Shown: positions 4,570-58,482 of the stretch, one piece after another
Layout of the letters: every line of letters begins with the position of its first letter
Numbering within the stretch: position 1 is the first letter of the stretch
Assembly (NCBI RefSeq): GCF_008035925.1
Contig: NZ_CP036264.1
Location: forward strand, 5,640,402-5,704,401
Direction: 5' to 3'
From: Stieleria maiorica
Lineage (GTDB): Bacteria > Planctomycetota > Planctomycetia > Pirellulales > Pirellulaceae
Length of the DNA stretch: 64,000 bases
The notes under the pieces: model-generated
Told to the model about the DNA's origin: nothing
What the model saw: only the letters and a program-made list of their open reading frames with translations
The model's database searches: none
Translations under genes and position numbers: made by a program

Positions 4570-4922
4570 CGATTGGTTCTCGCGGCAGCGGAGCGGAGAG
4601 GGCCAAAAGATGGACTGGTCAAAAAATGGGGGGCCGGACGCCGGCGCGACCCCGCTGATCTCATTCGATGACCAGCCGTGTGGCGCAAGCCCAATGCCAC
4701 CAACTTTCGATCACAAACTGAGCCGTAGGCGCTACCCTCTGGCTTTACAAGAGCCGTAGGCGCTAGCCTCGGGCCTTACAAAAGCCGTAGGCGCAAGCCT
4801 CGGGTCTTACAAGTCTCGAAGGGCAATCCAAGGCCCGCGGCTAGCGCCGTCGGCTCATCGAGTCGGTGCGTTTGGCGCATGCCTGCGGGCCTCCCCCTGA
4901 CAATCGCTCGGCCCAAGGCCCC
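4570..4922. other. Convergent intergenic region with dispersed repeats
   Basis: Between the ends of ubiA (plus) and the Nudix gene (minus). No ORF of note. 4600-4632 holds a degenerate family A repeat, and 4720-4857 is an array of the GAGCCGTAGGCGCTAG repeat. Confidence 0.6.
4720..4857. repeat. GAGCCGTAGGCGCTAG repeat array, three direct copies and one inverted (family B)
   Basis: Direct copies begin at 4720, 4751 and about 4780, each about 30 nt (AGCCGTAGGCGCTAGCCTCG then a TTACAA end). An inverted copy (GGCTAGCGCCGTCGGCTC core) lies at 4831-4857, so the last direct and the inverted copy can pair. Related copies are at 12189-12234 and 58385-58482. Confidence 0.85.
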
Positions 4923-10891: not shown

Positions 10892-10971
10892 CCCCGCTCC
10901 CCAAAACAGATCGCGCAAACAGAATTTGATCGCGGAAGGACGATGACCGCGATCTGTTTTGGGGAGCGGGG
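10892..10971. repeat. Perfect 24-nt inverted repeat with 32-nt loop
   Basis: Arms 10892-10915 and 10948-10971 are exact reverse complements (outer end CCCCGCTCCCC, inner end CAGATCGCG). It could fold into a very stable RNA hairpin between convergent genes or be the remnant of a palindromic mobile element. Confidence 0.85.
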
Positions 10972-23171: not shown

Positions 23172-23252
23172 CGACTCCCATCAACCCGTACGACGGCCCT
23201 TCCGGGCGGTCGACTCCCATCAACAAGTACGACGGCCCTTCCGGGCCGTCGC
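23172..23252. repeat. GACGGCCCTTCCGGGCCGTC repeat, two direct copies
   Basis: Two near-identical 40-nt units (GACTCCCATCAAC then GTACGACGGCCCTTCCGGG) sit between convergent genes. Each contains a GGCCCTTCCGGGCC-type palindrome that could act as a bidirectional terminator. A third copy of the palindrome is at 45050-45073. Confidence 0.75.
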
Positions 23253-42520: not shown

Positions 42521-42610
42521 CGTGGCAGGGAGCGTGCGGATTCTAAGTCGTTGATTCTAAAGGGTTTTCGCGAATTACTCTGGCGGCCCTGTACCACGAA
42601 GGAAGTGATT

Positions 42611-42685
42611 GCCCACGGATGGCAGCGCGAACCCACGGATGTTGTGCGGTCGGGGATCCGTGGGTTCGCGCTGCCATCCGTGGGC
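42611..42685. repeat. Perfect 30-nt palindromic stem with 15-nt loop, copy 1 (family C)
   Basis: Arms 42611-42640 and 42656-42685 are exact reverse complements, each bounded by CCACGGAT at both ends with GGCAGCGCGAA in the middle. On the plus strand it is followed by TTTTTCG, so it could also terminate transcription. Compare 53903-53975. Confidence 0.93.
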
Positions 42686-42818
42686 TTTTTCGATTTCCCG
42701 AGACCTTGCCTCCGAACGCACCGCCAAAAAGAAAAACCGTCCTGCAAGCGAGTGAAGAACGTAAGAGCCTGCTATCTGAGCGGTTAAGAACCGCACGACC
42801 TCGGAAGCGAGGACCGGT

Positions 42819-51718: not shown

Positions 51719-51926
51719 TTACTCGTCTTTTTGGCGGATCGCAACAGCCAGCGTCTCACCCGAGCACGGACGCTCGGCCGGCCCGACGTAGCTACCTTCG
51801 CCAGAAGGTGGATACCCGTGTTTTCCACGCTCTGGCGAGCGTAGCTACGTTGTAACGCGCCCGGTTGATACGCCGGACGCCCGTGCGAACCCTCTCATTG
51901 ATTCCTCCCCGACAAAACGTTTTCAA

Positions 51927-53816
51927 ATGACTCGCCCCCTCGCCGTTTGCTTCTCCCTCCTTTGCCTTTCAACCCTGGCGTCCGCCGCGCCGCCCCGACC
52001 GAACATCCTTTGGCTGTCGTGTGAAGACATCAGCCCGCACCTCGGGTGCTATGGGGACGAGCATGCGATCACGCCTAACCTGGACCAACTCGCCGACGAA
52101 GGTGTCCGCTACAGCCATGCGTTCACAACCGCCGGAGTTTGTGCGCCGTGCCGCAGCGGGATCATCACAGGGATGTACCAGACGACACTCGGGACGCACC
52201 ACATGCGTTGCACGGCCACGCTGCCCGATGGGATCCATCCGTTCCCAAAATTCCTGCGCGACGCCGGGTACTTCTGCACCAACAATTCCAAGCAGGACTA
52301 CCAATTCAAAACGCCCGCCGACACATGGGATGTTTCATCCGGCAAGGCCCATTGGCGTGACCGCGGCGATGATGACACGCCCTTCTTCGCCGTGTTCAAC
52401 TTCACCGGCTGCCATGAATCGGGCATCGCACGAAAAAGCAAGTATCTGGATGTGACCGAGGTGTTGACCGACGACCAACGTCAAGATCCCGCGAAATTGC
52501 AACTGCCGCCCTACTACTGCGACACAACGATCACGCGCGAGGATTGGAAACGCAACTACGAATTGATCACGGCCATGGACCATTGGGCCGGCGGGTTGAT
52601 TCAGCAGCTCAAGGACGACGGCCTGTACGAAAACACGATCATCATGTTCTGGTCCGATCACGGCGTCGGATTACCACGAGCTAAACGCTGGCTGTACGAA
52701 TCAGGCACACACATCCCGCTGATCGTTCGCATTCCAGCGGCGTATCGTGTCGACGACCAGGGAACTCCGGGGACCGTTTGCGACGACCTGGTCAGCTCGA
52801 TCGATTTCGGACCAACCGTCTTGAATCTCGCCGGTCTCGACCTGCCCTCGTACGTTCAAGGACAATCGTTTCTGGGAAGCGATCTGCCGGCGCCCAGGCA
52901 ATATGTGTTCGGCGCACGCGACCGCATGGACGAACGCTACGACATCATTCGAATGGTTCGCGACAAACGTTTCCGTTATCTCCGCAACTTTGAACCGCTG
53001 AAAAGCTATTACCAATACATCAACACCTGCGAAAAAGGCGCCACGATGCGCGAGCTGAGACGGTTACATGACGCGGGTCAATTGCCGCCGGCGGCCGAAT
53101 ACTATTTCTCGCCCACCAAACCGGTCGAAGAGCTCTACGATTGCGAAGCCGATCCGCACGAAATCCACAACTTGGCCGACGACGATGCCTACGCGGATGT
53201 GTTGAAACGGATGCGTGATGCACAAACCCGGTGGATCGCCGACACGGGGGACCTGGGATTGATCCCCGAAGCGATCCTTGCCGAGCGAGCCGAATCGTTG
53301 GGAAGCGAATACGCAGTCCTGCGACAGGTCGATGCGGATCGATACAACAAACGGCTTGGTGAGATCGCGGTCGCCGCTTCAAGCGGTCCGTCGGCCTTGA
53401 AAACGCTGGTCGATGCCGCCGAAGACGGCGACAGCGCCATCCGATATTGGGCGGCGACGGGGATCGGCAACCTGGGCACGGTCGCAAAACAAGCCGCCTT
53501 CGAATCGATGACGCAGTTGCTGGCCGATGATTCGTCGGCCGTCCGCACCGCGGCGGCCCGGGCGTTGTGCCGAATGGAATTGCCCGAGGCAGCGCTGCCG
53601 GTCTTGATCCACGAGATGACCACCGGTGCCCAGTGGGAACGGTTGCAGGCGGCCATCGTGCTCGATGAAATCGATGAACAGGCGCTGCCGGTGATCGACC
53701 AGATGCGGCAGGGATTGCAGTACCAAAAAGGCTTCAATTCCGACGGCAAGTACCGCGTCCGCGTGACCAACCGCGCCCTCAACGAACTTGAGGGAACGAA
53801 TAACGTCGTGGATTGA
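51927..53816 (+). CDS. Exported sulfatase with C-terminal HEAT-like repeats
   Basis: 629 residues. Signal peptide at 1-21. Sulfatase domain (23-~450) starts RPNILWLSCEDISPH, has the formylglycine site CAPCRSGIITG (C-x-P-x-R, residues 71-81, so the Cys can be converted) and the metal-site FWSDHGVGLPRAKRWLYESG. The C-terminal ~180 residues are alanine-rich helical repeats (ALKTLVDAAEDGDSAIRYWA, AAFESMTQLLADDSSAVRTA) resembling HEAT/PBS repeats, an add-on seen in planctomycete sulfatases. It likely desulfates marine polysaccharides; the substrate cannot be read from sequence. An anaerobic or aerobic maturase is needed and is not in the window. Confidence 0.91.
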   Translation: MTRPLAVCFSLLCLSTLASAAPPRPNILWLSCEDISPHLGCYGDEHAITPNLDQLADEGVRYSHAFTTAGVCAPCRSGIITGMYQTTLGTHHMRCTATLPDGIHPFPKFLRDAGYFCTNNSKQDYQFKTPADTWDVSSGKAHWRDRGDDDTPFFAVFNFTGCHESGIARKSKYLDVTEVLTDDQRQDPAKLQLPPYYCDTTITREDWKRNYELITAMDHWAGGLIQQLKDDGLYENTIIMFWSDHGVGLPRAKRWLYESGTHIPLIVRIPAAYRVDDQGTPGTVCDDLVSSIDFGPTVLNLAGLDLPSYVQGQSFLGSDLPAPRQYVFGARDRMDERYDIIRMVRDKRFRYLRNFEPLKSYYQYINTCEKGATMRELRRLHDAGQLPPAAEYYFSPTKPVEELYDCEADPHEIHNLADDDAYADVLKRMRDAQTRWIADTGDLGLIPEAILAERAESLGSEYAVLRQVDADRYNKRLGEIAVAASSGPSALKTLVDAAEDGDSAIRYWAATGIGNLGTVAKQAAFESMTQLLADDSSAVRTAAARALCRMELPEAALPVLIHEMTTGAQWERLQAAIVLDEIDEQALPVIDQMRQGLQYQKGFNSDGKYRVRVTNRALNELEGTNNVVD

Positions 53817-53902: not shown

Positions 53903-53975
53903 CCCACGGATGGCAAAGCGTACCCACGGATGTCATTCAGCCGGGAATCCGTGGGTACGCTTTGCCATCCGTGGG
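53903..53975. repeat. Perfect 29-nt palindromic stem with 15-nt loop, copy 2 (family C)
   Basis: Arms 53903-53931 and 53947-53975 are exact reverse complements. The outer and inner CCACGGAT blocks are shared with 42611-42685, but the middle reads GGCAAAGCGTA rather than GGCAGCGCGAA, changed identically in both arms. Confidence 0.93.
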
Positions 53976-54034: not shown

Positions 54035-56062
54035 CTACTTCGATCCAGCAAACGCGTCCAATTCACTCAGCTTCAAACGCACGCTCAAGATGTAGGGCTG
54101 TTCGCCCTTGGTCCAATGACCGTAGGTGGTTGTGACGATCGTGTCGTCCGGCAACACTTCGACGCCGGGATACGCCGTGTCGGCGCCTTTCGTGTTGTCG
54201 CCCAACCGCACGAAGTACTGGCCGTCACGCCCGCCCACCAAATCGTCCCAGCTGCCGACCCAACCGACCCAATCGCCTTCGAACGGGCGATGCTTTCGGT
54301 CTTGCATGGGTGACTGGCAACGATAGCTGATGAACAATCGACCGTCCGCGGTGTACTTTCCGGTGTGGCGATCGCCGGTCAACGCGAGTGGCAATTCCTG
54401 CGGCGCCGACCACGATTTTCCTTCGTCATCGGAAAAGATGATGTGGGAATTCTTGCGCCGCGCGTTTTCTCGCAGCAGCACGGCCAGCCGTTTCCCATCG
54501 GGCGACCGGATGCAACCGGGTTCGCACAGATGAACGTCGCTCGACTGATACACCGATTCCGGGGTGGACCAAGTCAAACCGCCATCGGTCGAGCGCGTTT
54601 GATACAGCGTGAAAACACCGGTTCGTTTTCCATTCTCCGTGAAGAACCGCCCGTCGTCGTGGAACATCGCCAGGTAGTGCCCCTTTCCCGTCCGCAACGC
54701 TTCGACGAAGCCCATCACGACAATCCCGCCCCAGTCGCCGACGGGCTTCAGCGGGCTCCAATCCAAACCGTCGTTTTCCGAAACCGCCAGGCGAGCCGGA
54801 TAGAGCCCCGACCACATGATGATGCGTTTGGTGCCGTCGGGACCGATCACGCGGTGAAGTGTGGGCACTTCCCTGGACGTCGACCAATTGTCGGGCGTGG
54901 GCAAACGATCGCTCCATGTCCGTCCGCCGTCGTCGCTGCGTCTGTAAACGATGCCGCCGCGGCCATGCCCTTTCGGATACACGCACAACATCGTCTTGCC
55001 GTCTTCCAACAAACACGTCGTCGGATGGCCGAGGTATTGTCCGGCTTCGCGATCAACGATCACTTGGCGGCCGGTATCATCACTCAAATCGATCGTCGAA
55101 AGGGATGTTGCGTCGTCGGATGAGGCGGGCTGCAAGAACCCATGTGACACGAGGAACCGATCCAAGTGGCGGATCGTTGATTCGTAGCTTGAATTATCAC
55201 CGCGACCATAGTTAAAAAAACCGTGTCCTTGGCCATCGAATCCGACCAGTTCGCAATCACCGCCGGCCTTTTCGATCGCCTGACAGAACGCTTCGACCGT
55301 CCAATAGGGGACCGTGGAGTCGGCTTTGCCATGGAAGATGATCGCCGGCGGCGTTTCCGAGCCGACGTGATGGATCGGCGAGAGAGCTTTGGGGTCGGTG
55401 CCCATCCGTTCGGGAAGGCCGGCAACTTTTTCCGGATCCAGCGGCGGCCGATCGTCGATCCCGGCCAACACGACGGCCGGATTGAACAGCGCCAACGCGG
55501 CGGGCCGACTGCTGACCGAGCTATTTTCGCCGGATTCATCAAGCCCCTCGATCACGCCGGTGCATGCCGCCACGTGGCCTCCCGCCGAGCCTCCGCCGGC
55601 GACGACCCGATTCGGGTCGATGCCCAATCGATCCGCCTGCTCGCGGATCCAGCGGACCGCCGATTTTCCGTCGGCGACACACTGGACCGCCTTGGTCCCT
55701 TGGCGTTCCAACACGCGGTAGTCTGCCGTCATCGCGACCATGCCGCGCGACGCCAGGTACTTGCAGTGCTCAGTGAACTGGTTCGGCGTTCCGCTCTTCC
55801 AGCCGCCGCCGAAGAAAAACACGATGGCCGAACGCCGATCGCTCGGCTTGTGGTCGTGTGGCCGGAACACGTACAGATTCAATGAAACCGCTTGCCCCTC
55901 GGCATCCTCCGTGGTTTTGTAGACTTCGACGGAAGCACCGGCGCGGCGCATCTTGGATTCGGTGTCTTGATCCTGGGCCCAAAGGCGGGGGACAGGAATT
56001 AGTGCAAGTGTGATCAGTGCTAGTGTGATCGGGGCGAATCGAACACGCGATTGGTGGGACAT
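54035..56062 (-). CDS. Exported alpha/beta-hydrolase esterase fused to a sialidase-like BNR domain
   Basis: 675 residues from the ATG at 56062. A signal peptide ends near RLWAQ (~30). Residues ~50-320 are an HSL-type esterase: FFFGGGWKSG (oxyanion HGGG-like), nucleophile elbow AGGGSAGGH, then FHGKADSTVP (acid) and GQGHGF (His). Residues ~335-675 form a beta-propeller with Asp-boxes (S-x-D-x-G-x-T-W: SDDGGRTWSD, STDGGLTWST, SDDEGKSWSA), as in exo-sialidases. The catalytic Arg triad of sialidases was not verified. The fusion suggests removal of ester groups and cleavage of a glycan by one secreted protein. Separate genes fused by frameshift is unlikely since the frame is continuous. Confidence 0.83.
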   Translation of the reverse strand: MSHQSRVRFAPITLALITLALIPVPRLWAQDQDTESKMRRAGASVEVYKTTEDAEGQAVSLNLYVFRPHDHKPSDRRSAIVFFFGGGWKSGTPNQFTEHCKYLASRGMVAMTADYRVLERQGTKAVQCVADGKSAVRWIREQADRLGIDPNRVVAGGGSAGGHVAACTGVIEGLDESGENSSVSSRPAALALFNPAVVLAGIDDRPPLDPEKVAGLPERMGTDPKALSPIHHVGSETPPAIIFHGKADSTVPYWTVEAFCQAIEKAGGDCELVGFDGQGHGFFNYGRGDNSSYESTIRHLDRFLVSHGFLQPASSDDATSLSTIDLSDDTGRQVIVDREAGQYLGHPTTCLLEDGKTMLCVYPKGHGRGGIVYRRSDDGGRTWSDRLPTPDNWSTSREVPTLHRVIGPDGTKRIIMWSGLYPARLAVSENDGLDWSPLKPVGDWGGIVVMGFVEALRTGKGHYLAMFHDDGRFFTENGKRTGVFTLYQTRSTDGGLTWSTPESVYQSSDVHLCEPGCIRSPDGKRLAVLLRENARRKNSHIIFSDDEGKSWSAPQELPLALTGDRHTGKYTADGRLFISYRCQSPMQDRKHRPFEGDWVGWVGSWDDLVGGRDGQYFVRLGDNTKGADTAYPGVEVLPDDTIVTTTYGHWTKGEQPYILSVRLKLSELDAFAGSK

Positions 56063-56193
56063 GTGGGCTGCCAAAGGGAAGAAAAACGGGGAAGGTGCGT
56101 TGAACACGCGTGGGGTGGGAATGGTTTAAAGTATAGCCCCGCCTGCTGTCCCGTGTTCCCACGCACTCCCCACACCCACCCACGCAACCCTCC

Positions 56194-58386
56194 ATGATTC
56201 GATTGACTCGATGCTACTTCTCGGCGTTGTTGCTCTCACCGCTTCTTGCATTGCTGACCAGTTCCGTCGCCCTCGCGGAAAACGACAACCCGGTTGGCGA
56301 TGCGGTTGCCGGCGACGGCATTGATTTTTCCAGTGCCGATTTCTGGGAGACGATCGACGGAAAACCGGTCGGCGAAAGTTGGGAGTTTTCCGACGGAGAG
56401 GTCCGACTGGTCAACCCACGGGGCGGCAATGGCAGTCTGATCAGCCGGCCGCTTCCGCCAAACTTTGAACTGTCATGGGAATGGAATATTCAAGAGAAAA
56501 CGAACACGGGATTGAAGTACCGCGTTCGCAAGTTCGGAAAAGCGTTGTTCAGCAACAGCTTCTTGGGAATCGAGTACCAGATCATCGACGACGCTCCGAC
56601 CAAGCTGGACAAAGGCAGCACGGCGTCGATCTATGATTTGGTCGCACCAGCGGGTGAAAAAACGCTGCATCCGATCGGCCAGTGGAATCAGGCGCGCGTG
56701 GTCGCCAGGGGGAACCGATTGGAGCATTACCTGAACGGCCACCTGGTTGCCTCGGCCACGACGACCGGCCCCAGCTGGGACAAGACGATCGCGCTGAGCA
56801 AATTCTATGGTGCGAAGGACTTCGGCAGCCCCAAGGCCGGTGACCGCATCATGCTGACCGATCACGGCGGCAAAGCGTCGTACCGCAAGTTTCAGTTTGC
56901 CGCCCTGGAGGTCGATGCGGCTGACATCGAACCGCCGGCCGCATCGGGCCCGTTCCTCGGCAACGCGATGCGGAACAGTTGGGCGGACCAGGATTCCATC
57001 GTGATCTGGACCCGCACGACCGCGCGCCCCGATTTCGTCGCCGATGGCTTGGAGTTCGTTTCGATTTCGACCAAAGCGGCGTCCAAACTGTCCAAAGAAA
57101 CCGATCCCGAAAAGCTGCTCGGTGCACAACTTCCCGAAGACGTAACGTTGTCGCAAATGTTGGGAGCGTGTCCCGGAGCGCCAGGTCGCGTTCGGCTGAT
57201 GTACTTTCCCGGCAAACAACGCTATGCCACCAAGACCACCGATTGGATCACGACGGGACCGGACAGTGATTTCACGGCCCAGTGGAAACTCGAGGAACTA
57301 AAACCGGACACCCAATACGCCGCCATCATCGAAGCCCAATCACTCGACCGCGACGAAACCACAGCGGTCGTCCGCGGTGCGTTTCGCACTGCACCCAAGG
57401 TCAATGCGAAAAAGGACGTCAAGTTTTGCATCACGACCTGCCATGACTTCATCCGCCGCGACGACGGCATGAAGGGGCACAAGATCTATCCGGTGATGAC
57501 CGAGATGCAGCCGGATTTCATCGTCCACGCCGGCGACATCGAGTACTACGACAAACCCGACCCCTGGGCAATGACGATTGAATTGATGCGTTTCAAATGG
57601 GGCCGGATCTTTGCCCTGCCCAGCAATCGTGACTTTTACAGCCGGACCACCAGCTACTTTTTAAAGGACGACCACGACACGTTGAAGAATGACTGCTGGG
57701 CGGGCCAAAGCTACGGCTCGGTCAGTTTCGAACAGGGCGTCCGGCTGTTCAACGAGGAACAATTCCCGTCGCTGAAGCCACGTTACACCAACGTCCGCTG
57801 GGGCCGCGATCTGGAGGTCTGGTTCCTGGAGGGACGTGACTACCGCAGCCCCAATTCGATGCCCGATGGACCGGAGAAAACAATCTTGGGGGAAGAGCAG
57901 AAAGCCTGGTTGTTCAAGACCCTGGAGGAATCGACGGCGAAATTCAAAGTGATCTGCAGCCCGACGCCGGTCGTCGGCCCCGACCGCGCGAACAAGAAAG
58001 ACAATCACGCCAACGAGATTTTTGCGCACGAAGGCGACCAGATCCGGGCCAAGCTGGCGACGATCGACAACGTGATCGTGTTGTGCGGCGACCGTCATTG
58101 GCAATACGCGTCCTTTGATTCCGACGCCGATCTCTGGGAGTTCGGCTGTGGCCCGGGAAGCGAGAAACATCAATTGGGCTGGAAACCGGGCGACGAGCGT
58201 CCACAGCACCGATTCCTACGCGTCGCCGGCGGATTCCTGTCCGGCGAATTGAACTACACCGGCGAGGAAAAACAACCGCGATTGACCCTCCGCCACCACA
58301 AGGTCGACGGAGAAACCGTCAGCGAGTTCCACTTCCCGATCGAAGGGGACGGGGGTGAATGGCACGGGGATAAGCCGATACGCTGA
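56194..58386 (+). CDS. Exported DUF1080-PhoD-like phosphatase fusion
   Basis: 730 residues. Signal peptide to ~28. Residues ~40-240 match a DUF1080 jelly roll (FELSWEWNIQEKTNTGLKYRV, GQWNQARVVARGNRLEHYLNG). Residues ~255-700 are a PhoD-like alkaline phosphatase/phosphodiesterase: an Ig-like lead-in (DSIVIWTRTTARPDF), then KFCITTCHDF, HAGDIEYYDKPD, LKDDHDTLKNDCW and VVLCGDRHWQYASF, all carrying candidate metal ligands. A protein joining a sugar-binding or sugar-cleaving jelly roll to a PhoD phosphatase is uncommon. It may release phosphate from phosphorylated glycans. Frame continuous across both domains. Confidence 0.84.
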   Translation: MIRLTRCYFSALLLSPLLALLTSSVALAENDNPVGDAVAGDGIDFSSADFWETIDGKPVGESWEFSDGEVRLVNPRGGNGSLISRPLPPNFELSWEWNIQEKTNTGLKYRVRKFGKALFSNSFLGIEYQIIDDAPTKLDKGSTASIYDLVAPAGEKTLHPIGQWNQARVVARGNRLEHYLNGHLVASATTTGPSWDKTIALSKFYGAKDFGSPKAGDRIMLTDHGGKASYRKFQFAALEVDAADIEPPAASGPFLGNAMRNSWADQDSIVIWTRTTARPDFVADGLEFVSISTKAASKLSKETDPEKLLGAQLPEDVTLSQMLGACPGAPGRVRLMYFPGKQRYATKTTDWITTGPDSDFTAQWKLEELKPDTQYAAIIEAQSLDRDETTAVVRGAFRTAPKVNAKKDVKFCITTCHDFIRRDDGMKGHKIYPVMTEMQPDFIVHAGDIEYYDKPDPWAMTIELMRFKWGRIFALPSNRDFYSRTTSYFLKDDHDTLKNDCWAGQSYGSVSFEQGVRLFNEEQFPSLKPRYTNVRWGRDLEVWFLEGRDYRSPNSMPDGPEKTILGEEQKAWLFKTLEESTAKFKVICSPTPVVGPDRANKKDNHANEIFAHEGDQIRAKLATIDNVIVLCGDRHWQYASFDSDADLWEFGCGPGSEKHQLGWKPGDERPQHRFLRVAGGFLSGELNYTGEEKQPRLTLRHHKVDGETVSEFHFPIEGDGGEWHGDKPIR

Positions 58387-58482
58387 GCCGTAGGCGCTAG
58401 CCTCGGGCCCTACCGCCGTGTTATAGGCGCATCAACGCCCGCGGCTAGCGCCGTCGGCTCACTAAGCCCGTGCCATTTGGGA
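58385..58482. repeat. Family B inverted pair with extended flank
   Basis: A direct copy at 58385-58412 faces an inverted copy at 58436-58462 (GGCTAGCGCCGTCGGCTC). The right flank (AAGCCCGTGCCATTTGG) matches the reverse complement of 12184-12207. It lies directly behind the PhoD fusion stop and overlaps its last bases. Confidence 0.8.

Follow-up and report, generated by a model that had tools for sequence, protein, structure and literature searches.

Two perfect hairpins of Stieleria maiorica are probably copies of a palindromic core at the centre of MITE-type elements

The 64,000-nt stretch of the Stieleria maiorica genome analysed here, called the window (positions 5640402–5704401 of a single contig of 9,894,293 bp), holds two intergenic hairpins about 11 kb apart whose arms carry matched changes, which raises the question whether such changes reflect selection on the structure, one arm serving as template for its partner, or common ancestry. 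The original prediction of two perfect stems with 15-nt loops at 42611 and 53903 was confirmed. The first hairpin has 30-bp arms at 42611–42640 and 42656–42685 around the loop 42641–42655, the second 29-bp arms at 53903–53931 and 53947–53975 around the loop 53932–53946, and the arms are 100% complementary in both. Also correct is the claim that in each copy both arms carry the same middle change, which is seen at positions 14, 15 and 19 of 29: the arm difference is GGCAGCGCGAA versus GGCAAAGCGTA, mirrored in both arms. The blocks common to both copies are the 9-mer CCCACGGAT, two per arm. Its 8 occurrences in the window (both strands) are all inside the two hairpins, compared with a mean of 0.99 after shuffling. 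In the palindromic core at 42611–42685 (unstranded; 73 bp plus one additional G-C pair, GCGCGAA subfamily) these outer and inner half-sites are at 42612–42620 and 42632–42640 on the plus strand and at 42656–42664 (inner) and 42676–42684 (outer) on the minus strand. In the 73-bp core at 53903–53975 (likewise unstranded, GCGTA subfamily), which lies between two ORFs that converge on it, with ends at 53816 (+) and 54035 (−), they are at 53903–53911 and 53923–53931 (plus), and at 53947–53955 (inner) and 53967–53975 (outer) on the minus strand. A search of the window against Rfam at gathering scores gave 0 matches.

The core has the layout 9-11-9-15-9-11-9 (73 bp) and is built on CCCACGGAT. When up to three mismatches were allowed, 75 places in the genome of S. 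maiorica fit this architecture, and 0 fit the reversed control pattern. A strict search, based on three of the four 9-mers and permitting loops of 5–30 nt and middles of 6–16 nt, returned only middles of 11 and loops of 15, save one copy with a loop of 14. Stieleria belongs to the family Pirellulaceae (NCBI). In the Stieleria/Rhodopirellula group, 6 of 14 genus genomes possess the family, with 283 places altogether: besides the own genome these are G001 (36), Stieleria sedimenti (G002, 35), Rhodopirellula sp. SM50 (G005, 61), strain TBK1r (G012, CP036432.1, 41) and Rhodopirellula sp. JC639 (G013, 35). In a set of 60 genomes, 59 of them relatives, it is absent from the eight other congeners and from 46 genomes of other genera. 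There was no match beyond the own genome among 392 genomes sampled evenly over the phylum, none to the 42611 core in plasmid or phage collections and no exact match to the pattern in viral contigs. Copies from five genomes were read individually, 191 in total (G000 65, G005 41, G001 36, G002 28, G012 21; the pattern total in these genomes is 248), the 35 places of Rhodopirellula sp. JC639 standing outside this sample. Arm counts use 190 copies, one with unalignable arms from a tandem array being excluded. In this array, at 9809685–9810493 of the own genome (L089), the core is repeated every 232–252 bp or so, with three full copies and a partial fourth. A stretch of 1.68 Mb outside the window (3433177–5109313) is free of cores among the copies listed.

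When the flanks are aligned, the core turns out to be the middle part of larger repeats, which form three families, here called O, R and PQ. Bacterial MITEs are miniature inverted-repeat transposable elements, and the repeats found here resemble them in being short, dispersed, mostly located between ORFs and bounded by terminal inverted repeats, and in that family R shows target duplications of 4 bp; they differ in that a long, near-perfect central palindrome is their best conserved part and is common to several families with different flanks. Family labels were assigned by a near-flank score with a limit of 50, and some copies labelled R on this basis lack R ends. Among the 190 copies, 32 belong to O (own genome only), 44 to R, 48 to PQ and 66 to no recognised family.

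Family O measures about 275 bp, has imperfect inverted ends and a consensus that folds end to end. The 42611 core is held by a MITE-like element of this family on the plus strand, 42528–42802 (limits approximate, set by eye), whose ends GGGAGCGTGCGGATTCTAAG (left) and GGTTAAGAACCGCACGACCTC (right) are imperfect terminal inverted repeats. Terminal inverted repeats similar to GAGGTCGTGCGGTTTWTAA are present in the family as a whole, and in 12 of its 32 copies both could be anchored; by eye, one of these 12 gave a candidate target duplication, and no duplication was consistent among them. Searching with the O flanks by sequence alone also revealed elements with the core deleted or truncated, one with the core deleted being located at 4857619, inside the 1.68-Mb stretch mentioned above. 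At two loci of the own genome (L046 and L073) there is a separate palindrome, CCCTCCCTGGAAGGGAGGG, half of which abuts many family O ends; family O may have inserted into this palindrome. Family R is clearly a MITE. It is 312–318 bp long where both of its 28-bp terminal inverted repeats are found, which is the case in 15 distinct copies (up to 6 mismatches tolerated), and the 4-bp flanks, of the form NTAN, are identical in 8 of the 15, match at 3 of 4 bases in 3 and are mismatched in 4. The ends of family PQ, about 200 bp long, were judged by eye alone. Since the ends of R and PQ resemble TGnnnCGTC (by eye), the families may be diverged relatives. With a flank score of 36, below the limit of 50, the 53903 copy could be assigned to none of the known host elements; by eye its flanks look like decayed R flanks. 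Neither a flank search in the own genome nor a search for R ends in 423 loci revealed a transposase or an autonomous partner. Gene context was evaluated in three genomes by crude calling of ORFs of at least 180 aa, a copy up to 300 nt past an ORF start being counted as upstream; an initial count was dropped as short ORFs covered 25 copies. From 124 copies, 109 are located between ORFs, as is usual for MITEs, 7 are within an ORF and 8 lie too near the end of a locus.

The sites of the two window copies are occupied differently among relatives. At the 42611 site the neighbouring gene was present in 12 other genus genomes, with no recognisable core within 1500 bp downstream; in the sister Rhodopirellula sp. 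JC639 the O flanks are retained there and the core is gone. The 53903 site was read in those eight relatives in which the neighbouring gene is matched over nearly its full length, four with partial matches being left out. Here Rhodopirellula sp. JC639 has the same loop, has one arm shortened by 20 bp in a way that suggests deletion between two direct copies of CCCACGGAT, and differs at two positions of the remaining middle. Rhodopirellula sp. SM50 carries a different and more decayed core, probably a separate insertion, and the other six of the eight have no core at this site. Judged by these differences, core copies appear, vanish and decay.

According to the original prediction the matched changes indicate that pairing is maintained, either by selection on a hairpin or by copying one arm from the other, a view to which mostly mismatched arms in the other copies were thought to be fatal. 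Exactly this was found in the sample: of the 190 copies compared, 155 have at least one mismatch and only 35 have perfect arms, the mean being 1.88 mismatches per 29. The compensatory reading is weak. Arm copying stays plausible in view of the better than shuffled matching in families O and R, the surplus of perfect arms in both and the inverted loops described below, the flipping of a loop being the other outcome of template switching. Shuffling right arms among all copies gave a mean of 2.45 mismatches. The overall matching of arms is therefore real, but subfamily structure accounts for much of it. Within family O the values are 1.38 observed versus 1.63 shuffled and within R 1.91 versus 2.14 (13 of 2000 shuffles reached the observed value in either case), for copies outside the three families 2.41 versus 3.02, and in PQ there is no gain (1.46 versus 1.44). 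The fraction of perfect arms shows the same, with 0.31 versus 0.18 in O, 0.16 versus 0.04 in R and no excess in PQ. Arm matching showed no gain within G002 or within G012 either. With a gain that is small in O and R and nil in PQ, G002 and G012, recent arm copying case by case is unsupported.

A genome-wide alignment of arms and a test for covariation had been proposed as a check. There is indeed an excess of two-sided changes, but most of it comes from a single position. Over all copies, 6 of the 29 positions show matching changes on both sides: at position 19, which is the marker of one subfamily, 50 were seen versus 17.8 expected under independence, and lesser excesses exist at positions 10 (15 versus 8.7), 14 (7 versus 3.0) and 15 (13 versus 8.8). 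The excess across many stem positions which would be typical for a structured RNA was not seen. Since it is mostly due to the position 19 marker, subfamily ancestry is the main reason why the two hairpins of the window differ in a paired manner. Mismatches, too, are inherited in this way: subfamilies with a shared arm mismatch have become dispersed, for instance with GGCAGAGCGTA opposite GGCAAGGCGTA in 8 of the 41 copies read in Rhodopirellula sp. SM50.

More direct information comes from orthologous copies. From 29 candidate pairs, 14 with an alignable near flank were kept, several of them supported by one flank only, and 15 with poor near flanks were left out; L083/L228 and L074/L245 share outer flanks, yet were excluded as separate insertions, their near flanks being unalignable. 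In these 14 pairs 26 arm changes are one-sided and 3 two-sided, the latter sitting in three separate, more diverged pairs. Differences affect 3 of 252 positions in the inner 9-mers, 9 of 252 in the outer ones, 20 of 308 (6.5%) in the middles, 32 of 812 in whole arms, 32 of 210 in loops taken in their best orientation and 171 of 2011 (8.5%) in the flanks. The divergence of the middle, which was not selected for in the search, is thus little below that of the flanks. The 9-mers look more conserved than they are, as copies were gathered under a mismatch limit on these very elements; the inner 9-mers vary less than the outer ones despite the equal limit. Identity in gapped alignments, as a measure of flanks versus arms, was discarded, since random 50-mers reach 0.70.

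The orientation of the loop also varies. Relative to the host flanks, 11 of 31 copies of O, 10 of 48 of PQ and 3 of 44 of R have the loop in the less common orientation, and it is inverted in 2 of the 14 strict ortholog pairs as well as in L145/L163 and L151/L173, whose near flanks are weaker. The clearest case is L182 of strain TBK1r versus L249 of S. sedimenti (a draft assembly), in which the arms are identical, the flanks are 85–93% alike within 120 nt, and the loops have 1 mismatch when one is inverted as compared with 11 in direct comparison. A shared asymmetric outer mismatch stays on the same side, hence only the inside has turned. The inversion is less clear in L143/L175, with 6 mismatches inverted versus 12 direct. 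In-place inversion of the spacer with the arms kept, as would be expected from template switching, is thus clearest in L182/L249, provided that the draft assembly is correct there. In plastid hairpins, too, small inversions flip the loop between related genomes and leave the stem unchanged; those are organelle loci, whereas here a dispersed bacterial repeat family is concerned.

Taking these data together, the hairpins are probably copies of a 73-bp palindromic core central to non-autonomous MITE-type elements which have spread within the genus. This is suggested by the dispersed copies, the fixed architecture, the three host families and the ends and duplications of family R, and furthermore by the variable presence at orthologous sites and the inverted loops. 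The evolution of the core looks more like the outcome of quirks of DNA copying and founder effects than of selection for an RNA structure. In such a scenario, the difference between the window copies would go back to the founders of two subfamilies, in which it became fixed in either arm before the subfamilies were dispersed, and template switching during replication at the palindrome would occasionally have matched arms and inverted loops. As far as excerpts of two reports go, template switching has been described in yeast coding DNA, rRNA and microRNA genes (PMC8604942, PMC8794818), where it yields arm matching and spacer inversion (PMC8604942) and loop inversions, bacterial rRNA included (PMC8794818). 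The homogenisation of arms and the inversion of spacers or loops are the common features, the difference being that dispersed copies of one bacterial palindrome are involved here. Finally, the conserved 9-mers and the conserved 11- and 15-nt spacings suggest that the core could be read as a sequence, most likely as an array of four inverted half-sites, with starts 20, 24 and 20 bp apart, for a putative DNA-binding protein that would serve the element. We regard this as the least certain step and put it forward tentatively, as a possibility with somewhat more against it than for it.

A hairpin selected at the RNA level, which at the 3' ends of transcripts would act in termination, in stabilisation or as a target of RNase III and be kept by compensatory mutation, would explain the very stable folds (for the window hairpins, four single-strand folds gave energies 10.8 to 13.2 s.d. 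under the dinucleotide-shuffle mean) and perhaps also the gene context. Of the 109 placed copies, 52 lie in tandem gaps, 41 in convergent and 16 in divergent ones. For comparison, ten samples of 20 kb from the own genome contain 26249 bp of intergenic sequence, 4485 bp of it in convergent gaps, and 16 of their 61 gaps that reach 100 bp are convergent. The preference for convergent gaps is thus evident from their length and weaker when gaps are counted, as would fit a terminator or plain avoidance of promoters. Such selection appears improbable, considering the mismatched arms of most copies, the preponderance of one-sided changes between orthologs and the inverted loops; moreover, G-U mismatches do not consistently outnumber A-C mismatches when the strand is oriented by the flanks (O 15:8, R 13:20, PQ 28:21), and in family O a T-run past the hairpin is, by eye, confined to one side. 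Another class of dispersed extragenic palindromes with subfamilies are the REP/BIME and GTAG/CGTC repeats, which according to an excerpt of PMC3733652 are 20–40 bp long, with stems of 6–13 bp (GTAG) or 8–9 bp (CGTC) and a GTAG or CGTC end, some having been reported from Planctomycetes. The family described here differs from them, as far as that excerpt characterises them, by its 29-bp stems, its fixed 15-nt loop and the lack of a detectable RAYT link. Mobilisation of REP-like palindromes by a RAYT (Y1 transposase) would be compatible with their dispersal, mostly between ORFs, and with the presence of Y1_Tnp genes in 14 of 14 genus genomes. It is very improbable nevertheless: the 8 family-free genus genomes carry Y1_Tnp as well, the core with its 73 bp is not of REP size and its arms begin with CCCACGGAT, and family R has inverted ends and target duplications. 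We searched 32 of 91 Y1_Tnp loci, including the 4 of the own genome, for a RAYT next to its cognate palindrome; only 2 hold one exact 9-mer each, hence no core with intact 9-mers is located at these 32.

Alternatively, the 73-bp core itself could be mobile or exchangeable and enter different MITEs, its loop being inverted by a putative dedicated enzyme. The identical core with a homologous-looking loop in three otherwise unlike flank families argues for this, as do the 66 copies outside the recognised families and two distant metagenome-assembled genomes (MAGs) with one copy each among the matches listed. Against it, no clean 73-bp insertion versus an empty site was seen among the copies, the core-less O copies resemble deletions rather than empty sites, and the similar look of the R and PQ ends may mean that the families are diverged relatives; an independently mobile core is therefore unlikely. 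The two distant copies come from a scan of named genomes, which returned at least 120 stretches, 118 of those listed being from four named congeners; outside the genus, one core each was found, among the matches listed, in a PVC-group MAG (L348) and in a Verrucomicrobiales MAG (L350). In the middle, L348 retains pairing at 10 of 11 positions and L350 at 8 of 11; compared with the Stieleria consensus, six positions in the former and two in the latter are altered alike on both arms. With random bases, 10 of 11 pairs would arise with a probability of about 8e-6. Pairing that is kept despite an altered sequence is the best evidence for selection on the hairpin at long range, although arm copying would predict the same pattern, and binning error or transfer may have brought these copies into the MAGs. 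Palindromy may thus have persisted over deep time. One could go further and regard the four-half-site core with its fixed spacing as an old cis-acting module of the PVC group, taken up by several unrelated MITE carriers, with its palindromy kept across phyla and its middle rewritten, and served by a putative dedicated protein, which perhaps inverts or swaps the core. We consider this rather unlikely. If the MAG copies reflect descent, the geometry of a palindromic module has been kept across phyla.

For the MITE-type core that we favour, no description was found in the literature, judged by titles and the beginnings of abstracts in a limited collection, and in one Stieleria genome paper (PMC11588811) the terms 'palindrom', 'hairpin' and 'inverted repeat' are all absent. 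Matched changes in two hairpins alone do not prove a functional RNA. With its 283 places, orthologous pairs and built-in markers of orientation, the family constitutes a natural test bed for the rates of arm copying and loop flipping in bacteria. The window contains further palindromic repeats, at 4751–4856 and 58384–58461, 10892–10971, 23191–23251 and 51786–51850, and parts of these can be recognised by eye next to cores at other places of the genome. At 741–895 several overlapping inverted repeats are made of GGGGCAAAACAAT units. In four relatives, the orthologues of window positions 54035–56107 (L265–L268) show one TAG within the matched reading frame.
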